A DNA stretch of 59,016 nucleotides. It comes from Rubrivirga sp. SAORIC476 (GTDB lineage: Bacteria; Bacteroidota; Rhodothermia; Rhodothermales; Rubricoccaceae). Below the pieces are notes generated by a model. That model was given only the letters and a program-made list of their open reading frames with translations, was not told the DNA's origin and did not search any database. How positions within the stretch are numbered: position 1 is the stretch's first letter; each line of letters begins with the position of its first letter. This document shows positions 12,549-23,883 of the stretch, one piece after another. The DNA lies in the NCBI RefSeq assembly GCF_002283555.1, contig NZ_MVOI01000003.1:2104835-2163850 (forward strand), written 5' to 3'. The position numbers and the translations under genes were made by a program.

Positions 12549-13760
12549 ATGCCCGATCCCATCGCCCTCGCCTTCTCCGGCGGCCTCGACACCTCCTTCT
12601 GCGTCCCGTACCTCCGCGAGGAGACGGGCCGCGAGATCCAGACCGTGACCGTCGACACGGGCGGCTTCGACGAGGCCGAGAAGGCGGCCATCGCGGCGCG
12701 CTCCGAAGAGCTGGGCGCCGCCGGTCACCAGATGGTGGACGCCCGGCGCGACCTCTGGGACCGCGTCCTCCAGTACCTCGTCAAGGGCAACGTGCTGCGC
12801 GGGGGCGTCTACCCGCTGTGCGTCGGGCCGGAGCGCGTGGTGCAGGCCGCGGCGCTGGCGACGGCGGCGCGTGACCTCGGCGCCACGGCCGTCGCCCACG
12901 GATCGACCGGCGCAGGCAACGACCAGATCCGCTTCGACGCCGCCCTCCGTCTGCTGGCCGATGCGGGCGACGGCGGTCCGCTGGAGATCTTGACGCCCAT
13001 TCGCGCCCTCGAACTGTCGCGGGAGGCGTCCACGACCTACCTGCAGGAGCGCGGCTTCGCCGTCGAGGCCAAGACCACCGAGTACTCGGTCAACCGGGGC
13101 CTGTGGGGGACCACCATCGGCGGCAAGGAGACGCACGACACCGACGGCGTCCTGCCCGAGGCGGCGTGGCCCGACACGATCGCGCCGGCCGACGCGCCCG
13201 ACCAGCCGCACCGCTTCCTGATCCGCTTCGAGGCGGGCGTGCCGGTGGCCGTGGCGGGCGAGGCCCTCGACCCGGTGACGTTGGTCGAGACGCTCAACCG
13301 CGACGGCGCGGCGCACGGCGTCGGGCGGGGCATCCACGTGGGCGACACGATCCTGGGCATCAAGGGCCGGATCGCGTTCGAGGCGCCGGGCGCGCTGACG
13401 CTCCTGGCCGCCCACCGCGAGCTGGAGAAGCTGGTGCTGACGCAGCTCCAACTCGTTCACAAGGCCAGCCTGGGCGACCTGTACGGGCGGCTCGTCCACG
13501 AGGGCCTGTTCTTCGACCCTGTCTGCCGCGACATCGAGGCGTTCCTCGACAGCAGCCAGCAGCGCGTCACGGGCGACGTGACCGTGGAGTGGTTCAAGGG
13601 AAGCATCCGTGTGCTCGGCGCCACGTCGCCGCACTCGCTCTTCGACGCCGGGGTCGCCCGCTACGGCGAGGACAACGCCCTGTGGTCCGGCCGCGACGCC
13701 GAGGGCTTCGCCCAGATCTACGGGCTGCAGGCCCGCCTCGCCGCCCGCGCGGGCGCGTAA
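12549..13760 (+). CDS. argG: Argininosuccinate synthase
   Basis: ArgG joins citrulline and aspartate with ATP to give argininosuccinate. The 403-residue protein begins with the PP-loop ATP-binding motif SGGLDTS (residues 10-16). It carries 'VAHGSTGAGNDQIRFD' and 'EASTTYLQERGFAVEAKTTEYSVNRGLWG', conserved in the family. Its placement as the first gene of the arginine operon, rather than next to argH, is the order known from Bacteroidota. The attenuator-like leader lies directly upstream. A 57-base spacer separates it from the DUF1611 gene. Confidence 0.97.
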   Translation: MPDPIALAFSGGLDTSFCVPYLREETGREIQTVTVDTGGFDEAEKAAIAARSEELGAAGHQMVDARRDLWDRVLQYLVKGNVLRGGVYPLCVGPERVVQAAALATAARDLGATAVAHGSTGAGNDQIRFDAALRLLADAGDGGPLEILTPIRALELSREASTTYLQERGFAVEAKTTEYSVNRGLWGTTIGGKETHDTDGVLPEAAWPDTIAPADAPDQPHRFLIRFEAGVPVAVAGEALDPVTLVETLNRDGAAHGVGRGIHVGDTILGIKGRIAFEAPGALTLLAAHRELEKLVLTQLQLVHKASLGDLYGRLVHEGLFFDPVCRDIEAFLDSSQQRVTGDVTVEWFKGSIRVLGATSPHSLFDAGVARYGEDNALWSGRDAEGFAQIYGLQARLAARAGA

Positions 13761-13817: not shown

Positions 13818-14954
13818 ATGCCCACCCGAACGATCACGACGCTCACCGTCGACCACGTCGCCAGCAGCACGGGGCCGTGCGGGCTGGACCACGAGGTCCG
13901 CATCTCGCCCTACGTCGTCGCGGAGGAGGGGTACTGCCTCGCCGTCCGCGCGCTCGACGCCAAGGACGTCTACAACCAGCTCGAGGGCGCCGACGGCGTG
14001 TTCCGGACCATCGAAAAAGGGCAGACGCTGGTCGGCGCGCTCGGCGAGCGGCAGGCGCTGAAGGGGTATTCGGGGCGGATCCCGCGGCACGTGTCGGTGG
14101 GCGATGAGCTCCACATCCAGAACATGGGTGGCATCCTGGGCAAGGTGGCTGCGCCGCACCCCGACCTGGGGCCTGCGCTCCGCGTCGAGGTGCTGGGCGC
14201 CGTGCTGACGGGCGAGCCGCCGCGCCACGCGCGCATCCAGGACACCGCCATCGAGCCGGTCGAGACGCTGGCCACGAGCGCGCCCCTCGTGATGGTGTCC
14301 GGCACGGCCATGAACACCGGCAAGACGTTCGCCGCCGCCGCCCTGGTCGGCGGGCTGACGGCGCGCGGGCTCCGGGTGGCCGCGGCCAAGCTGACCGGCG
14401 CGGCGCTCCAGCGCGACGTGCGGGCGATGGTGGCGCAGGGCGCGATCGCGTCGGCCAGCTTCATCGAGGCCGGCGCGGTCGCGACGACGGGCCGCGACAT
14501 GGTGCCGGTCGCCAAGGGCATCATCGCCCACCTCAACCGCGCCGCCGAGGCGCAGGGGGCCCCGGCCGACGTGCTGGTGCTGGAACTGGGCGACGGCGTG
14601 ATCGGCCCGTACGGCGTCGACCAGATCCTGGAGGACATGGAGCTGCAGCGGCTGACGGCCGTCCACGTGCTCGCGGCGACGGACCTCGCGGGGGCGTGGG
14701 CGTGCGACCAGCTGTTCCGAAATCGGTACCGCGCGGAGATCGGCGTCGTCGTCGGCCCGGCGACCGACACGGACGTGGGCAAGCGCTACCTCCAGACCTC
14801 GCTCGGCATCCCCGCACTCAACGCCCGCTCCGAGCCCGACGCGCTCGTCTCGCTCGTCGCCGAGGACGTGCTGGAGCGCAAGGCGTGGCACGAGGCCCCG
14901 AGCCCGCTCCCGACGTTCAACGGTCCCCGCCGGCCCCTCACCCCGAGCTCATGA
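13818..14954 (+). CDS. DUF1611 P-loop protein; candidate glutamate N-acyltransferase
   Basis: This 378-residue protein matches DUF1611: an N-terminal alpha/beta domain of about 110 residues, then a P-loop domain with Walker A 'GTAMNTGKT' at residues 162-170, similar to dethiobiotin synthetase. 'VLVLELGDGVIGPYGVD' follows further on. DUF1611 includes DgcN, reported to N-acetylate D-glutamate. The gene lies inside the arginine operon between argG and argC and overlaps argC by 4 bases (ATGA), so it is almost certainly translated with it. No ArgA, ArgJ or GNAT-type synthase is encoded here. The inferred role is the first step, N-acylation (acetyl or succinyl) of L-glutamate. Family: confident; role: inference. 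A D-glutamate role is also possible. Confidence 0.8.
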   Translation: MPTRTITTLTVDHVASSTGPCGLDHEVRISPYVVAEEGYCLAVRALDAKDVYNQLEGADGVFRTIEKGQTLVGALGERQALKGYSGRIPRHVSVGDELHIQNMGGILGKVAAPHPDLGPALRVEVLGAVLTGEPPRHARIQDTAIEPVETLATSAPLVMVSGTAMNTGKTFAAAALVGGLTARGLRVAAAKLTGAALQRDVRAMVAQGAIASASFIEAGAVATTGRDMVPVAKGIIAHLNRAAEAQGAPADVLVLELGDGVIGPYGVDQILEDMELQRLTAVHVLAATDLAGAWACDQLFRNRYRAEIGVVVGPATDTDVGKRYLQTSLGIPALNARSEPDALVSLVAEDVLERKAWHEAPSPLPTFNGPRRPLTPSS

Positions 14955-16015
14955 CCTCCCCGACCGCTCCGCTCCGCGCAGCCGTCTTGCACGGCGCCGG
15001 CTACGCCGGTGGCGAGCTGCTGGCGCTGCTGCTGGCCCACCCGCTCGTCGACCCCGTCGTCGTCACCAGCCGCAGCCAGGCCGGGCAGCCGGTCTGGACG
15101 ACGCACCCGCGCCTGCGCGGCCAGTCCGACCTCGTCTACTCGGATCCCGCCGACCTCGACGCCGAGGCGGCCGATGTCGCGTTCATCTGTGCCGAGCACG
15201 GCCAGGGTGCCGCGGCGGTCCAGTCGCTCCGCGGGTCGGGCTTCGAGGGCCTGATCGTCGACCTGTCGGCCGACCACCGGCTGGACTCGCTGGCGACCTA
15301 CGAGGCGGTCTACGGCCTGGAGCACCCGGACCCGGACGCCATGCGGGCGGCGGTCTACGGGTTGGCCGAGGTCAACGGCGACGCCGTGGCGGGGGCGACG
15401 CTGGTCGCCAACCCGGGCTGCTTCGCGACGGGCCAGAGCCTGGCGCTCTACCCGCTCGTCGGCCTGCTGGGCGAGGTCGAGGCGCACGTGACCGCGCTGA
15501 CCGGCGCGTCGGGCTCGGGCGCCCGTCCGTCGGCGACGACCCACTACCCGCGCCGCGACGGCAACGTGCGCGCCTACAAGCCGCTGGCGCACCGCCACCT
15601 CGCCGAGGTGCAGGAGGTGCTGGGCGACGGCGCGACGGTCCACTTCGTCCCCGTCTCCGGCCCGTTCACGCGCGGCATCTGGGGAACGGCGCACGTCGCC
15701 CTGCCCGAGGGCATCAGCCTCGATGAGGTGACCGAGGCGTTCGAGGCCGCGTATGGTGGGCGCCCGCTCGTCCGCTTGTCGCCCGGCGTGCTGCCCGAGC
15801 TGCTGCCGACGGTCGGGACGCCGTTCTGCGACCTCGGCTGGGTGGTTCGCGACGGGCACCTGGTGGTCGGCTTCGCGCTGGACAACCTGATGAAGGGCGC
15901 GGCCTCGCAGGCCGTCCAGAACCTGAACCTCGCCCTGGGCTGGCCCGAGGCGCTGGGCCTGCTCCCCGGCGTGGCGGTGCCGTCCCTGTCCGACTCCGGC
16001 CTCGTGTCGTCCTGA
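14951..16015 (+). CDS. argC: N-acetyl-gamma-glutamyl-phosphate reductase
   Basis: ArgC reduces N-acyl-glutamyl phosphate to the semialdehyde with NADPH. The 354-residue length is normal. The N terminus holds the dinucleotide-binding 'LHGAGYAGGELLALLLAHP'; the active-site Cys is C157 in 'NPGCFATG'; 'VSGPFTRGIWGTAHV' carries further conserved residues. The ATG overlaps the stop of the DUF1611 gene (ATGA), which shows translational coupling. Whether it prefers acetyl or succinyl substrates cannot be read from the sequence. A repeated element (16029-16053) follows it. Confidence 0.95.
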   Translation: MTSPTAPLRAAVLHGAGYAGGELLALLLAHPLVDPVVVTSRSQAGQPVWTTHPRLRGQSDLVYSDPADLDAEAADVAFICAEHGQGAAAVQSLRGSGFEGLIVDLSADHRLDSLATYEAVYGLEHPDPDAMRAAVYGLAEVNGDAVAGATLVANPGCFATGQSLALYPLVGLLGEVEAHVTALTGASGSGARPSATTHYPRRDGNVRAYKPLAHRHLAEVQEVLGDGATVHFVPVSGPFTRGIWGTAHVALPEGISLDEVTEAFEAAYGGRPLVRLSPGVLPELLPTVGTPFCDLGWVVRDGHLVVGFALDNLMKGAASQAVQNLNLALGWPEALGLLPGVAVPSLSDSGLVSS

Positions 16016-16113: not shown

Positions 16114-17289
<1,176 letters not shown>

Positions 17290-17362: not shown

Positions 17363-18382
17363 ATGAACCACCTCACCTCCTGGACCGACCTCGACGACGC
17401 CACGTGGCGGGCCTGCCTCGACCGGGCGCTCTGGCACCGTCAGAACCGCGCGTGGAGCCAGTCGGCCGCGGCGAAGGCGCTCGGGCTCGTCTTCTTCAAC
17501 CCGTCCCTGCGGACGCGCGCGTCGATGGACCTGGCCGCCGCCCACCTCGGCGCGCACGCGGTCACCCTCACCCCGGGTAACGGGACGTGGGGCCTCGAAA
17601 CGCGCGACGGCGTGACGATGGACGGCCTCGCCGCCGAGCACGTCAAGGAGGCGTTCGGCGTGCTGAGCCGCTACGTCGACGCTCTGGGCGTCCGCACCTT
17701 CGCGACGCTCACGGACCCCGAGGCCGACGCTGAGGACCGCGCCTTCCGCGCCGTCGTGGACGCGTCGACGGTGCCGGTCGTCAACCTGGAGTCGGCGCGG
17801 TGGCACCCGTGCCAGGAACTGGGCGACGCCGCGACCATCACGGACCACCTGGGCGGCGACGTGCGGGGCAAGAAGCTGGTGCTCCACTGGGCGCCGCACC
17901 CGAAGCCGCTGCCGCGCGCCGTCCCCAACTCGGCGCTGCTGATGGCCGCGCGGCTGGGCATGGAGGTGATCGTCGCCCGCCCCGACGGCTTCGGCCTGGA
18001 CGCCGACGTGCTCGACCTCGCCCGCGACGCCGCGCGGCGGTCCGGCGGGTCGGTTACCGAATCGAGCGACCGGGTCGGCGCGCTCTCCGGCGCCAGCGTG
18101 GTCTACGCGAAGGCCTGGGCCGGCAGCGGGGTCTACGGCTCGCCCGACCACGAGGCCCAACAGCGCGCCTCCCACGCCGACACCTGGCGCCTCTCGTCGG
18201 ACGACTTGGTCCAGACCGACCGCGCCGCCTTCATGCACTGCCTGCCCGTCCGCCGTGGCGTGGTCGTGGACGGCGACGTGCTCGACGGCGACCGCGCGAT
18301 CCACCTTCTCCAGGCCGAGTACCGGCTCCACGCCCAGAAGGCGATTCTGGAGTGGGTCTGGGGATTGGGTGCCGAGGGGTAG
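17363..18382 (+). CDS. argF': N-acylornithine carbamoyltransferase (ArgF')
   Basis: This 339-residue transcarbamylase moves the carbamoyl group from carbamoyl phosphate to an N-acylornithine, giving N-acylcitrulline. It has 'FFNPSLRTRASMDL' (residues 44-57) for carbamoyl phosphate, 'HPCQEL', 'WAPHPKPLPRAVPNSALL', 'FMHCLPVRR', and a Lys in 'RLHAQKAI' corresponding to the carboxylated Lys of the Xanthomonas enzyme. These mark the AOTC/SOTC family, not ordinary ornithine transcarbamylase. In the loop 'MDGLAAEH' A91 aligns with Glu92 of acetyl-specific and Pro90 of succinyl-specific enzymes. Changing Glu92 to small or Pro residues is reported to give succinylornithine specificity, so the acyl group here is open. 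Confidence 0.92.
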   Translation: MNHLTSWTDLDDATWRACLDRALWHRQNRAWSQSAAAKALGLVFFNPSLRTRASMDLAAAHLGAHAVTLTPGNGTWGLETRDGVTMDGLAAEHVKEAFGVLSRYVDALGVRTFATLTDPEADAEDRAFRAVVDASTVPVVNLESARWHPCQELGDAATITDHLGGDVRGKKLVLHWAPHPKPLPRAVPNSALLMAARLGMEVIVARPDGFGLDADVLDLARDAARRSGGSVTESSDRVGALSGASVVYAKAWAGSGVYGSPDHEAQQRASHADTWRLSSDDLVQTDRAAFMHCLPVRRGVVVDGDVLDGDRAIHLLQAEYRLHAQKAILEWVWGLGAEG

Positions 18383-18386
18383 AGAG

Positions 18387-19187
18387 ATGCAGAACGAGTC
18401 CATTCCTCAGGCCCCCGCCCCGGTCGTCGTCAAGCTGGGCGGGGCGATTCTCGCCGATGCCGAGGCGACAGCGGCGGTCTGGGCGGGCGTCGCCGTGATG
18501 GCGGAGCCGGTGGTCGTGGTCCACGGCGGTGGGCCGCAGGCGACGGCGCTGGCGCGGCGCCTGGGCCACGAGCCGACGATCGTCGTCGGGCGCCGGGTCA
18601 CGGGCGACCTCGACCTGGAGGTGGCGCTCTACACGCTGCGCGGCGCGCTCAACGCGCGGCTGGTCGGCGCGGCGCGGGCGGCGGGCCTCCGCGCCGTCGG
18701 CGTGAGCGGGGCGGACGGGGCGCTGGTGACGGTCGCGAAGCGTCCGCCCATCCACGTCGATGGGCAGCGAGTCGACTTCGGCCACGTCGGCGACGTCCAG
18801 TCGGTCGACCCGACGCTCGTGCAGACGCTGCTCGGCGCGGGCTTCGTGCCGGTCGTCTCCACCGTCTGCGCCGACGCCGCGGGCGCGCTCTACAACGTCA
18901 ACGCGGACACCGTCGCGGCCGACCTGGCGGCGGCGCTCGGCGCGCCGCGTCTCGACCTCGTCACCGAGGCCGGGGGCGTTCGCCGCGACGCCGCCGACCC
19001 GTCCAGCCATCTCCCCCGGTTGACCGAGGCCGAGGTGGCCGCGGGCGTCGCCGAGGGCTGGATCGCGGGCGGCATGCGGCCCAAGCTGGAGACGGCGCTG
19101 GCGGCGCTCCGCCGCGGCGTCCCGTCCGTCCGCGTCTGTGCCCCCGCCGACCTCGGCGGCGACGGCGGCACGGTCGTCACCGCGTGA
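18387..19187 (+). CDS. argB: Acetylglutamate kinase
   Basis: ArgB phosphorylates N-acyl-glutamate with ATP, the second step of the pathway. The 266-residue protein has 'VVVKLGGAIL' at its start, 'VVVHGGGPQATALARRLG', and 'YNVNADTVAADLAAALGA', all conserved in amino-acid kinases of this type. It lacks the N-terminal helix of arginine-inhibited hexameric NAGKs, so direct arginine feedback is less likely; this would raise the weight of control at the leader. It starts 4 bases after argF' and overlaps the next gene by 4 bases (GTGA). Confidence 0.94.
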   Translation: MQNESIPQAPAPVVVKLGGAILADAEATAAVWAGVAVMAEPVVVVHGGGPQATALARRLGHEPTIVVGRRVTGDLDLEVALYTLRGALNARLVGAARAAGLRAVGVSGADGALVTVAKRPPIHVDGQRVDFGHVGDVQSVDPTLVQTLLGAGFVPVVSTVCADAAGALYNVNADTVAADLAAALGAPRLDLVTEAGGVRRDAADPSSHLPRLTEAEVAAGVAEGWIAGGMRPKLETALAALRRGVPSVRVCAPADLGGDGGTVVTA

Positions 19188-20317
19188 CCGCCTCGCATCC
19201 TCTTCCTCTCGCATCCCGCTCCGTGTCCGTCCTCTCCCTCCACGCCGACCTCGTCCGCATCCCGTCGCTGAGCTTCCAGGAGAAGCCCGCCGCCGACCAC
19301 GTCGAGGCGTTCCTGCGCGGCGTCGACGGGCTGGAGGTCGGGCGGCTGGACGAGAACGTCTGGGCCAGCCTCGGGGACGGCACGGACGACGTGCTGCTGC
19401 TCTGCTCGCACCTCGACGTGGTGCCGCCGAGCGAGGGCCACCCGTACCCGCCGTTCTCGCCCACGACCGTCGACGGCGCCGTCTACGGGCGGGGCGCGGT
19501 CGACGCCAAGGCCAGCGGCGCAGCTATGCTGACGGCCCTCGCCGACCTCGCGGCGTCCGGCTGGCGGCCCCCGGCGGGCGGGCGGCTCGTCGTCGCGCTG
19601 ACGGAGTGCGAGGAGACCGGCGCCGAGAACAACGGCATGGAGAAGATGCGCGACCGCGTCTTCGGCGACGCGCTGCCCGAGCCGACGGCGGCGCTCGTCG
19701 GGGAGCCGACCGAGCTGCGGCCGTGCCTCGCGCAGAAGGGCCTGCTGATCTTGAACGTGACCGCCCAGGGCGAGACGGCGCACGCCGCCCGCGCCCACCT
19801 CGGGAAGAACGCCCTCACCGTCGCCGCCCGCGACCTGCTCGCCATCGACGCGATGACGTTCGAGAAGAGCGACCCGCTGCTCGGCACGCCGACGATTACG
19901 GCGACCATGATCGAGGGCGGGACGGCCAAGAACGTTGTCCCGGACCGGTGCCGGATCACGCTCGACATCCGCTCGACGCCCGCGACTACGCACCCCGAAC
20001 TGACGGCACTCGTGCGCGAGGCGCTGGAGAGCCGCGTCGAGGTCCACTCCGAGCGCATCATCCCCTGTTCCACCGACCCCGACAGCCGGGTCGCGCAGGC
20101 CGCTGTCGCCGCCGTGTCCAGCCTGGGGCTGGACGCCGAGCCCTTCGGCAGCCCCACCGCGTCGGACTGGATCTTCGTCGCCGACGTGCCGACGGTCAAG
20201 ATCGGCCCCGGTCGCAGCGAGCTCTCCCACACCCCCGACGAGCACGTCGAGATCGCCCAACTCGAAGCGGCGGTGGACGTGTACAGCGAGATCGCTCGGT
20301 CCTACTTCGCCACATAG
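19184..20317 (+). CDS. argE': N-acylcitrulline deacylase (M20 family, ArgE')
   Basis: In the Bacteroidota-type route this enzyme removes the acyl group from N-acylcitrulline to give citrulline for ArgG. The 377-residue M20 peptidase-fold protein has the metal ligands in 'CSHLDVVP', 'GRGAVDAKASGAAM' and 'TECEETGAENNGM', followed by the lid/dimer domain ('AHAARAHLGKNAL'). The GTG at 19184 overlaps argB by four bases, fitting coupling; a second GTG at 19223 would give a 364-residue product starting nearer the conserved 'IPSLS'. No ordinary ArgE acting on acetylornithine is needed in this route. Confidence 0.9.
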   Translation: MTASHPLPLASRSVSVLSLHADLVRIPSLSFQEKPAADHVEAFLRGVDGLEVGRLDENVWASLGDGTDDVLLLCSHLDVVPPSEGHPYPPFSPTTVDGAVYGRGAVDAKASGAAMLTALADLAASGWRPPAGGRLVVALTECEETGAENNGMEKMRDRVFGDALPEPTAALVGEPTELRPCLAQKGLLILNVTAQGETAHAARAHLGKNALTVAARDLLAIDAMTFEKSDPLLGTPTITATMIEGGTAKNVVPDRCRITLDIRSTPATTHPELTALVREALESRVEVHSERIIPCSTDPDSRVAQAAVAAVSSLGLDAEPFGSPTASDWIFVADVPTVKIGPGRSELSHTPDEHVEIAQLEAAVDVYSEIARSYFAT

Positions 20318-20401: not shown

Positions 20402-21721
20402 ATGGCCTCCCACGACTCGACTCCCCAGGCCCAAACCCCGATCTGGCACAAGGGCACCGCCGCCGAGGACTGGGTGACGCGCTTCACCGTCGGCGAGGAC
20501 TGGCGGTGGGACACGATCCTGCTGCCGTACGACCTGGAGGGGACGCGCGCGCACGCCTGGGCGCTCGGCCAGGTCGGCGTGCTGACCGAGGCCGAGGTGG
20601 GCGAGGTGGGGGAGGCGCTCGACGCGATCCGGCGCGAATGGGAGGAGGGCGCCGTCACGGTCCGCCCCGAGGACGAGGACATGCACACCGTCATCGAGCG
20701 CGAGCTGACGGTTCGCTTGGGCGACGCGGGCAAGAAGATCCACGCCGGGCGCAGCCGCAACGACCAGGTGCTGACGGCGCTCCGCCTGTGGCTCCGCGAC
20801 GCGCTCACCGGCATCGCCGACGGGGCCGCCGAGGTGGGCGCGGCGCTCGTCGGCCACGCCGAGACGGGGCAGGCGCTCCTGATGCCGGGCTACACGCACG
20901 GCCAGCGCGCCATGCCGACGACCGTCGCCGTCTGGGCCGCGGGCTACGTCGACCTGCTGGCGGACGATCTCGCCACGCTCGCAGCGGCCCGGCGGTCGGC
21001 CAACACGTCGCCGTGGGGGAGCGCGGCGGGCTACGGCGTGCCGGTCCTGGATCTGCCGCGCGACGCGGTCGCCGAGCGCCTCGGCTTCGAGCGGACGCAG
21101 GCCATCGCGGCGGTGCAGCTCTCGCGCGGCAAGCTGGAGGGCGCCGTCGTCCACGCGCTCGTCCAACTCGGCCTCACGCTGAACCGGCTCGCGAGCGACT
21201 TGGCGCTGTTCGCGACCTCGGAGTATGGGTTCGTGACGCTGCCCGTCGAGCACACGACGGGCTCGTCGATCATGCCCCAGAAGCGCAACCCCGACGTGCT
21301 GGAACTGGCCCGCGCCACGGCCCACCGGCTGACGGCCGAACTGCACGTCCTGCTGACGTTGCCGGCCAACCTGCCCGGCGGCTACCACCGCGATTTGCAA
21401 CTGACCAAGGAGGCGACGATGCGCGCCGTCCTCGCGTCGCAGGATCTCGTGACCGCCGTCGCCGCCGTGCTCCCGGGCGTCACTTGGCAGGCCGACCGGA
21501 TGCGTGCGGCGCTCTCGCCCGACCTGTTCGCGACCGCGGAGGCCCTGCGTCTGGTCGCCGACGGCACGCCCTTCCGCGACGCCTACCGCGCCGTCGGCAC
21601 CGACCTCGGCTCGCTCACCGTGCCCACCGAGGCGGACGCGCTCGCGGCCTACACGTCGGACGGGACGCCGGGGAATGTGGACGTGGAGATGCTCCGCGAA
21701 CGGCTCCGAGCCGGCAGCTAG
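20402..21721 (+). CDS. argH: Argininosuccinate lyase
   Basis: ArgH splits argininosuccinate into arginine and fumarate, the last step. The 439-residue protein has '[20 protein letters not shown]' and the fumarase/aspartase signature '[12 protein letters not shown]' starting at residue 287, which includes the catalytic Ser. '[15 protein letters not shown]' marks the family. It is slightly shorter than E. coli ArgH at the C terminus. It closes the operon; its last 4 bases overlap the end of the convergent rlpA gene. Confidence 0.96.
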
Positions 21722-22530: not shown

Positions 22531-23883
22531 CTAGATCGCCGGCGCAGCCTCGATCTGGGGCGCCTCCTCGATGCCGTAGGCCGAGTCGCCGGAGGGGACG
22601 TCGGTAGCGGTCATGAGCTGGAACTCTGGGTAGGCCACCGTGCCGTGCTCGTGCACGTCGAGGCCGGCCGACTCGCCCTCGCCGGAGATCCGGAGGCCCA
22701 TCGTCAGGTCGAGCGCCTTGAAGAGCGCGTACGAGACCGGGAAGGTCCACAGGAACGCCGCGCCGACGCCGATGGCCTGGATGCCGAGCTGGCTCAGCGA
22801 GAACCCGTCGGCCGCGAACAGTGCCACGGCGAGCGTGCCCCAGGCGCCGCAGACGCCGTGGACCGCGACCGCGCCGACCGGGTCGTCGATGTACTTCTCC
22901 AGCCACAGCGTCGCGAAGACGACGATGATGCCCGCGAGCAGGCCGATCGCCAGCGCCCCGATGGGGAGGACGGCGTCGCATCCGGCCGTGATGCCCACCA
23001 GCCCGGCCAGCACGCCGTTGAGCGTCATCGTGACGCTCGGGATGCCGTCACGGAACCAGGTCAGGGCCATCGCGCCGAGCGCGCCCGCGCCGGCCGCCAG
23101 GAACGTGTTGGCCGCGATGATGGCGATGCCCGGTCCGCCCGCCGTCGTCGAGCCAGCGTTGAAGCCGAACCAGCCGAACCACAGGATGAACACGCCCAGC
23201 GCTGCCAGCGGGATGCTGTGGCCCGGAATGTCGACCGGCTTGCCGTCGATGAACTTGCCCACGCGGGGGCCGACCACCAACGTGCCCGCCAGCGCCGCCC
23301 ACGCGCCCACCGAGTGGACGACCGTCGAGCCGGCGAAGTCGAGGAAGCCCAGCCCTTCCAGCCAGCCTCCGCCGTTGAACAACCCGCCCCACGCCCATGA
23401 CCCGAACACGGGGTAGATCACAGCGACGATCACGACGGAGAATACGAGGTAGGCCTTGAAGTTGACCCGCTCGGCGACGGCACCGGAGACGATGGTCGCG
23501 GCGGTGGCCGCGAAGACGGCCTGGAAGAAGAAGAAGACGTAGGTCCACTCCGGCGTCTGGCCCTCGACGCCGAGCAGCGCGAACCCGTCCGTGCCGACCC
23601 AACCGCCGGCGCTCGTGCCGAACATCAGCCCGAAGCCGACCAGGAAGAACACGACCACCCCGGCGGAGGCGTCCATGACGTTCTTCATAATGATGTTGGC
23701 CGCGTTCTTGGCACGCGTCAGGCCCGTCTCGAGCAGGGCGAACCCGGCCTGCATCAGGAAGACGAGCGCGCCCGCGACCACGACCCAGACGAAGTCGAGG
23801 TTGGTCTGCACGTCGGCGGCCGTGGCGTCCTGGGCCGCGGCCAGGGCTGGGGCGAGGAGAAGGAGGGGGAGGAGCTTCCTCAT
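22531..23883 (-). CDS. amt: Ammonium transporter
   Basis: The 450-residue Amt channel carries ammonium through the inner membrane. A cleavable signal peptide ends AAAQ (residues 15-18), then about 11 membrane helices. Family signatures include 'FLMQAGFALLETGLTRAKN', 'DFAGSTVVHSVGAWAALAGTLVVG' with the pore His, and 'GDAVLPIGALAIGLLAGIIV' in the later helices. The second pore His is in 'AVAVHGVCGAWGTLAVALFA'. The C-terminal tail, which normally contacts the regulator GlnK, is present. No glnK lies next to it, which is unusual, since amt and glnK are commonly paired. Confidence 0.95.
   Translation of the reverse strand: MRKLLPLLLLAPALAAAQDATAADVQTNLDFVWVVVAGALVFLMQAGFALLETGLTRAKNAANIIMKNVMDASAGVVVFFLVGFGLMFGTSAGGWVGTDGFALLGVEGQTPEWTYVFFFFQAVFAATAATIVSGAVAERVNFKAYLVFSVVIVAVIYPVFGSWAWGGLFNGGGWLEGLGFLDFAGSTVVHSVGAWAALAGTLVVGPRVGKFIDGKPVDIPGHSIPLAALGVFILWFGWFGFNAGSTTAGGPGIAIIAANTFLAAGAGALGAMALTWFRDGIPSVTMTLNGVLAGLVGITAGCDAVLPIGALAIGLLAGIIVVFATLWLEKYIDDPVGAVAVHGVCGAWGTLAVALFAADGFSLSQLGIQAIGVGAAFLWTFPVSYALFKALDLTMGLRISGEGESAGLDVHEHGTVAYPEFQLMTATDVPSGDSAYGIEEAPQIEAAPAI

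Follow-up and report, generated by a model that had tools for sequence, protein, structure and literature searches.

The 378-residue protein encoded at positions 13818–14954 (+ strand) of a 59,016-nucleotide stretch of the Rubrivirga sp. SAORIC476 genome (the window) probably catalyzes the first step of an arginine pathway that runs through succinylated intermediates, in which it would acylate the α-amino group of L-glutamate, most likely with a succinyl group. The protein is a strong candidate for a non-homologous first enzyme, most likely an N-succinylglutamate synthase. The first step is assigned to this protein because its gene fills a slot in the arginine operon and nearly always excludes the known first-step enzymes. 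An earlier reading of the DNA from the sequence alone (the sequence-only reading) had proposed the protein as a non-homologous replacement of N-acetylglutamate synthase, and this proposal is supported by synteny in distantly related groups, by near exclusion with two unrelated enzymes and by the failure to find the step elsewhere. The N-acylation of L-glutamate suggested in that reading is retained as the role, and the acyl group is refined to most likely succinyl on the basis of residues in the carbamoyltransferase of the operon (ArgF').

The gene and its arginine operon

The gene at 13818–14954 is an intact, real open reading frame (ORF) within an arg operon that is encoded on one strand in the order argG, the 13818–14954 gene, argC, argD, argF', argB, argE and argH, as assigned with Pfam and NCBIfam. 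Upstream of the gene lies argG (12549–13760, +; argininosuccinate synthase), which scores 316.9 bits with TIGR00032 (cut-off 268.2). The downstream genes encode the N-acyl-γ-glutamyl-phosphate reductase ArgC (14951–16015, +; TIGR01850, 308.3 bits, cut-off 233.6), an ArgD-type N-acylornithine aminotransferase (16114–17289, +; Aminotran_3, with 385.8 bits for TIGR00707, below the cut-off of 410), the knotted carbamoyltransferase ArgF' of the N-succinylornithine type (17363–18382, +; NF003384, 406 bits, cut-off 288), the N-acylglutamate kinase ArgB (18387–19187, +; TIGR00761, 184.9 bits, cut-off 151.3), an ArgE/DapE-type M20 deacylase with a GTG start (19184–20317, +; Peptidase_M20, with the DapE and ArgE models below their cut-offs) and the argininosuccinate lyase ArgH (20402–21721, +; TIGR00838, 310.8 bits, cut-off 279.5). 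The position of the ORF between argG and argC and its Walker A motif GTAMNTGKT at residues 162–170 (14301–14327, +) are borne out by the sequence, as is the four-base overlap with argC, whose ATG at 14951 shares the bases ATGA with the TGA stop codon of the gene. ArgA, ArgJ and GNAT were all not found in the operon by Pfam and NCBIfam, and the 378-residue protein itself gives no GNAT or ArgJ domain match (Pfam E ≤ 1; NCBIfam E ≤ 0.1). The sequence-only description of an operon with all other steps and without these three enzymes agrees with the Pfam and NCBIfam assignments, in which argD and argE fall below the NCBIfam cut-offs. An ammonium-transporter-like protein, judged by eye from its translation, is encoded convergently to the arg operon at 22531–23883 of the window (− strand).

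The synteny was analyzed in an order sample of 60 genomes, comprising the window's own genome and 59 genomes from the same genus, family or order. Full-length orthologues are present in 30 of the 60 genomes, and the 29 other than the window protein are 40–86% identical to it. More distant homologues with ∼30% identity are also present in some of the 60 genomes. In the 30 order loci, argG is located directly upstream of the gene in all 30 and argC directly downstream in 29, the exception being a contig edge. In a scan across 84,980 species, each represented by one genome, 436 relatives were confirmed and the best 80 retained. Among these best 80 of 436 relatives, argG is found upstream in 78 (76 by script and two by eye, L129 and L146, whose argG is read as two pieces), and 77 have argC downstream; the other two and the other three loci are contig starts and contig ends, respectively. 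Twelve loci are common to the two sets, yielding 98 distinct loci that exhibit the argG–gene–argC arrangement as far as the contigs reach. The best-80 loci are named as Rhodothermales, Balneolales, Salinibacter, Gemmatimonadota and Acidobacteriota, and several are named merely as ‘bacterium’ or ‘Bacteroidetes’. In the 32 loci longer than 18 kb, argG, argC, argF and argB are present in 32/32, argE in 31, argD in 30 and argH in 29. Among 81 genomes of Gemmatimonadota (the phylum of L177 according to its title), 11 carry the gene, which lies beside argC in 11/11 and has argG upstream in 8/11.

Several individual loci depart from the common pattern. The arg-type gene precedes argC without argG upstream in the Gemmatimonadota loci L255, L256 and L257. 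No argD match lies between argC and argF' in the Balneolales/Balneolaceae bins L139, L145, L149, L152, L159, L160, L162, L163, L168, L169, L170 and L175, and the N-acylornithine aminotransferase of these 12 bins is probably encoded elsewhere. Moreover, arg operons with the gene occur in a bin named Aenigmarchaeota (L194) and in a bin named Bdellovibrionales (L183); the gene is unexpected in these lineages, and its presence may reflect horizontal transfer or a mis-binned contig.

Distribution relative to known first-step enzymes

Profile searches of the whole window genome found no ArgJ, no ArgA over the cut-off and no BT3761-like GNAT. The sequence-only reading had suggested a search of relatives for argA and argJ and for co-occurrence of the gene with arg operons; besides the 98 distinct loci described above, ArgJ was found in 0/60 and ArgA over the cut-off in 0/60 of the order genomes. 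The window genome contains 20 GNAT matches within our own ORF boundaries, and the single one that exceeds an NCBIfam cut-off is ArsN2. This protein (G000:C6), the sole GNAT reported for the ArgA profile (E 3.8e-12), was rejected as a hidden synthase based on its ArsN2 score of 138.3 bits (cut-off 125). At its locus (about 901500–902700; L205), an arsenate reductase-like domain is fused to the ArsN2-type acetyltransferase, with an ArsR-type gene adjoining. None of the remaining 19 GNAT matches exceeds an NCBIfam cut-off; since several of them fit no named family, a GNAT synthase of an unfamiliar kind might conceivably be encoded elsewhere in the window genome. An argA, argJ or GNAT synthase elsewhere in the genome, which the sequence-only reading had named as part of what would count against its proposal, was searched for genome-wide and not found. 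In arg operons that lack the gene, no alternative enzyme was recognized by eye among the ORFs upstream or downstream of argG or argC (20 stretches each, some cut by contig ends; L097 in the downstream set is a carrier).

A different candidate first-step enzyme is encoded in related operons. Of 23 loci from elsewhere in the phylum, all outside the order, 12 have a GNAT gene just upstream of argG and 11 have none at this position. Ten of these argG-adjacent GNATs were used to build the GNAT profile A2. The argG-adjacent GNAT is taken as the BT3761 family, read from its position, size and stated pathway and not from a comparison with the BT3761 sequence. According to PMC7311316, genetic evidence shows that BT3761 of Bacteroides takes part in arginine synthesis, and the protein is probably an N-succinylglutamate synthase. 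The GNAT would thus serve the same step in the same type of pathway as the 378-residue protein, but it is ∼190–270 residues long as read and exhibits no visible sequence relation to that protein, and the two replace each other. ArgA and ArgJ likewise fill the same step, but neither family matches the 378-residue protein or was found in the searched carriers (for ArgA, at scores over its cut-off).

With profile A2, the argG-type GNAT is detected in 23 of the 60 genomes of the order sample, always at an E value of 1.5e-82 or better. Nine of the 23 matches include one in-frame stop, and an intact ORF of 180–232 residues was read in five of eight retrieved loci. The gene is carried by 30 of the 60 genomes and the GNAT by 23, and both are found in one genome only (G019). 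The exclusion gives a Fisher's exact p value of 1.5e-8, or 2.4e-9 if the gene fragment of G023 is counted. This fragment is located at a contig end beside argC, and G023 is one of eight order genomes without a full-length copy of either gene. The remaining seven lack an argF' of the SOTCase type (best score 18.8 bits, in G017), six of the seven have no argC match, and three are 88% complete. In G013 (77% complete), the GNAT is present and argF' was not found. Gene-bearing and GNAT-bearing genomes occur together in families f2, f5, f7 and f12. A tree of argG and argC displays six label changes and provides three independent pairs on well supported branches (two opposite and one with no difference; sign test p 0.5). 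Because there are only three independent pairs, the tree alone gives no significance, and the exclusion is not phylogenetically independent.

A similar relationship is observed with ArgJ. In Gemmatimonadota, ArgJ is found in 0/11 carriers compared with 37/70 other genomes (p 0.0007), and 33 genomes lack both the gene and ArgJ. In a set of 24 carrier genomes, ArgJ was found in 0/24. The distribution of the gene is complementary to those of the known first-step enzymes, and across the sampled genomes the gene nearly always stands in for them and not beside them.

Sequence relatives and predicted fold

The sequence-only reading had labelled the protein as a member of DUF1611. PF07755 (DUF1611) is its best Pfam match, yet the score of 18.4 bits (E 0.0016) is below the cut-off of 25. 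Of 20 family members, 15 match PF07755 at E ≤ 0.01, with a best value of 1.2e-4, whereas no match at E ≤ 0.001 is obtained when PF07755 is run against the entire window genome. This is not due to chance: the orthologues are 38–86% identical across almost their full length and are syntenic. The label is weak, as the match lies under the Pfam cut-off and the P-loop domain fits DUF1611, BioD and CTP synthase about equally well. By sequence, the basis for a DUF1611/DgcN assignment is weak. The nearest solved proteins by sequence are dethiobiotin synthetases (BioD), with E values of 0.002 (query A4) and 0.013 (query A1). The 2g0t, 2obn and 7xrj chains give no sequence match at E ≤ 1, and phmmer and profile searches from the family did not reach 7xrj (DgcN).

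Conserved residues were identified in 40 arg-type sequences and seven distant homologues. Eight of the 110 extracted proteins were excluded ahead of the redundancy filter that yielded the 40 sequences, but they still count in the synteny tallies (L007 and L121 with an over-long start; L139, L152, L180, L183 and L194 with in-frame stops as extracted; L175 truncated). In the Walker A motif, G162, M165, G168, K169 and T170 are invariant across the 40 arg-type sequences, and T163 is almost so. The P-loop glycine, lysine and threonine residues, K191 (14388–14390, +), D200 (14415–14417, +) and E256 (14583–14585, +) are invariant in both the 40 arg-type sequences and the seven distant homologues. K191 aligns with the lysine of the BioD stretch ‘CKPVQTG’, and D200 is located at or adjoins the aspartate residues of the BioD stretch ‘RGDDDLAE’. 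Five other residues are invariant in the arg-type sequences and seldom found in the distant homologues: Y84 (1/7), N102, G266, W294 and D317 (0/7 each).

An AlphaFold2 model of the protein, generated with 40 sequences, has a pLDDT value of 94.3 and a pTM value of 0.91 and consists of an N-terminal domain, which is almost entirely β-strand, and a P-loop domain (residues ∼150–357). The P-loop domain matches 2g0t (TM0796, which we take to be a DUF1611 protein; Z 17.2, rmsd 2.8, 181 aligned residues), CTP synthase (Z 16.9), BioD (Z 16.5), 2obn (DUF1611; Z 15.6, rmsd 2.8, 180 aligned residues) and 7xrj (DgcN; Z 14.9). With the whole model, 7xrj is aligned over 183 residues in the range 59–349 (rmsd 3.0, Z 14.9). 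Fold matches that differ by less than 1 in Z are counted as tied. Because the DUF1611, CTP synthase and BioD matches are tied, DgcN does not stand out by fold; the P-loop domain of the DUF1611/BioD fold is present, but it is unspecific. The N-terminal domain alone matches no solved structure at Z ≥ 5 and gives no Foldseek match at E ≤ 0.001. The structures 7xrj, 2g0t and 2obn are missing from the match lists of the N-terminal domain, an absence that does not mean different folds.

Acyl group, proposed reaction and alternatives

The acyl group is suggested by the carbamoyltransferase of the operon. According to PMC4581275, the AOTCase of Xanthomonas has Glu92, Asn185 and Lys302 at three sites that are Ala/Ser/Pro/Val/Gln, Pro and Val/Ile/Glu, respectively, in SOTCases. 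The window ArgF' contains A91, P184 and V301 at the E92, N185 and K302 sites. Among PDB entries it matches 3l02 best, with alanine aligned at the Glu92 site. Glu, Asn and Lys are absent from the respective three sites in all 66 ArgF' sequences of carriers, and the published SOTCase residue set fits 53 of the 66. In 13 of the 66 sequences, the E92 site is occupied by threonine, which is outside the published AOTCase and SOTCase sets (L132, L139, L141, L149, L152, L160, L162, L163, L168, L169, L170, L175 and L183). The ArgF' proteins of 19 distinct GNAT-bearing genomes are of the same type, one of them with alanine at the second site; these 19 are what is left of 24 ‘non-carrier’ entries that hold four repeats and one carrier (L075). 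Both first enzymes appear to serve a succinyl pathway because the ArgF' proteins of carriers and of GNAT-bearing genomes are of the same type. Given the role, the product would probably be N-succinyl-L-glutamate, which is the most likely product because the carbamoyltransferase of the operon has the N-succinylornithine signature A, P and V. The same enzyme could instead act as an N-acetyl-L-glutamate synthase in a pathway with acetylated intermediates, as might be argued from the name N-acetylornithine carbamoyltransferase carried by the matching argF' model and from Cabys_1732, a relative of BT3761 that is an N-acetylglutamate synthase according to PMC7311316. This reading is improbable given that the Ala/Pro/Val residues of ArgF' correspond to the SOTCase set and that most Bacteroidetes, according to PMC7311316, appear to use succinylated intermediates.

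In the proposed pathway, the 378-residue protein would cap the α-amino group of L-glutamate with an acyl group, most likely succinyl, and ArgB, ArgC, ArgD and ArgF' would then act on the protected intermediates. The M20 enzyme ArgE would remove the acyl group before ArgG and ArgH act. The P-loop domain, with the GTAMNTGKT motif, K191, D200 and E256, may bind the nucleotide part of the activated donor, most likely succinyl-CoA, and Y84, N102, W294 and D317 may bind glutamate and the succinyl carboxylate. We infer the reaction, the donor and these residue roles from the evidence above. DgcN is an acetyl-CoA-dependent D-glutamate N-acetyltransferase, reportedly described in a paper in the ISME Journal, and the PDB title of 7xrj names an N-acetyltransferase. 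Acyl transfer from succinyl-CoA is favored because DgcN has the same fold; a CoA-dependent mechanism would be suggested by this fold and the known DgcN activity, 7xrj itself lying beyond the reach of the sequence searches.

Enzymes of the BioD, CTP synthase and CobB fold are known to work via acyl phosphate activation, and the 378-residue protein could by analogy be an ATP-dependent ligase, in which succinate or acetate would be activated as an acyl phosphate and attacked by the amine of L-glutamate. The BioD relationships by sequence (E 0.002 and 0.013), the alignment or adjacency of K191 and D200 to the BioD lysine and aspartate stretch, and the ties of CTP synthase and BioD with DUF1611 in Z score all speak for such a ligase, and BioD-like ATP-dependent ligation of succinate would fit the sequence about as well as succinyl-CoA transfer. 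However, DgcN, which is among the listed fold matches, uses acetyl-CoA to acylate glutamate, and the acylating first-step enzymes known to us use acyl-CoA or transfer from acetylornithine. A ligase is a tentative, rather unlikely reading, and it is somewhat less likely still that the protein founds a new class of enzymes as a BioD-fold ATP-dependent ligase that caps L-glutamate with free succinate and allows arginine synthesis without acyl-CoA. Two further readings would remove the protein from the pathway altogether. As SRP-type GTPases, HypB and MeaB-like proteins have the same P-loop fold, the protein might be an NTPase with a regulatory or assembly function in the operon; such an accessory factor is quite unlikely because it would leave unexplained the replacement of the GNAT within the order, the absence of the gene where ArgJ occurs and the missing first step in carriers. 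Least likely by far is a D-glutamate N-acetyltransferase with the DgcN role that is located in arg operons by chance. DUF1611 as the best Pfam match, though below its cut-off, and 7xrj in the fold list are in keeping with that role, but coincidence does not explain 98 distinct loci in arg operons, and this role would leave the first step without an enzyme.

The N-succinylglutamate synthase candidate thus combines features of several known proteins. It shares the P-loop fold with DUF1611 and DgcN proteins (2g0t, 2obn and 7xrj), with glutamate N-acylation as the activity of DgcN, but its family is found in the arg operon, whereas DgcN belongs to a D-glutamate pathway, and PF07755 is below its cut-off. 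BioD is nearest by sequence, BioD and CTP synthase both equal DUF1611 by fold, and the P-loop and K191 align with BioD; unlike these enzymes, the family here has an all-β N-terminal domain before the P-loop domain and an arg operon context. To our knowledge, this P-loop fold has so far not been reported for any glutamate-acylating enzyme of amino acid biosynthesis. Among the matches listed in searches of the open-licence literature (titles and abstract starts), neither a description of this family in arginine synthesis nor an L-glutamate activity of the family is reported. Rhodothermia are reported as dgcN carriers in PMC12363236, and, as a guess, some of these dgcN genes may be members of the arg-operon family.

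The first step of arginine synthesis is known for repeated enzyme replacement. If the assignment is correct, it would add a non-homologous enzyme to this step and fill the missing first step in many Rhodothermales and Balneolales and in some Gemmatimonadota and Acidobacteriota. Genome-based models would then count apparent arginine auxotrophs as prototrophs, and arginine synthesis may be the role of some proteins that are read as BioD-like, DUF1611 or DgcN-like.

The distant homologues occur in other gene contexts. For an enzyme that attaches an N-acyl group, an M20 deacylase would be a fitting partner, and in the order, an M20-type gene is located near the ∼30% identical homologue in five of seven loci in a tblastn search with ArgE (L199, L200, L203, L204 and L208). 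An M20-type gene was also recognized by eye in L201; the Pfam run covered the L199 gene only. The ∼30% homologue and the M20-type deacylase possibly form a separate N-acylation/deacylation pair. A flavin reductase-like gene is also found near the homologue in L199. For plasmid homologues, an M20 gene is present in one of four loci. The Rhodobacterales plasmid homologues L266, L267 and L268 have no M20 gene within the stretch viewed and, in contrast to the arg-type genes, lie immediately ahead of an ABC transporter gene. On the Priestia megaterium plasmid NZ_CP085446.1 (85130–93038; L269), the homologue is accompanied by an ornithine carbamoyltransferase, two ATP-grasp proteins, thiamine pyrophosphate enzymes and an M20 peptidase, and this cluster looks like a small-molecule biosynthesis pathway that uses N-protection.
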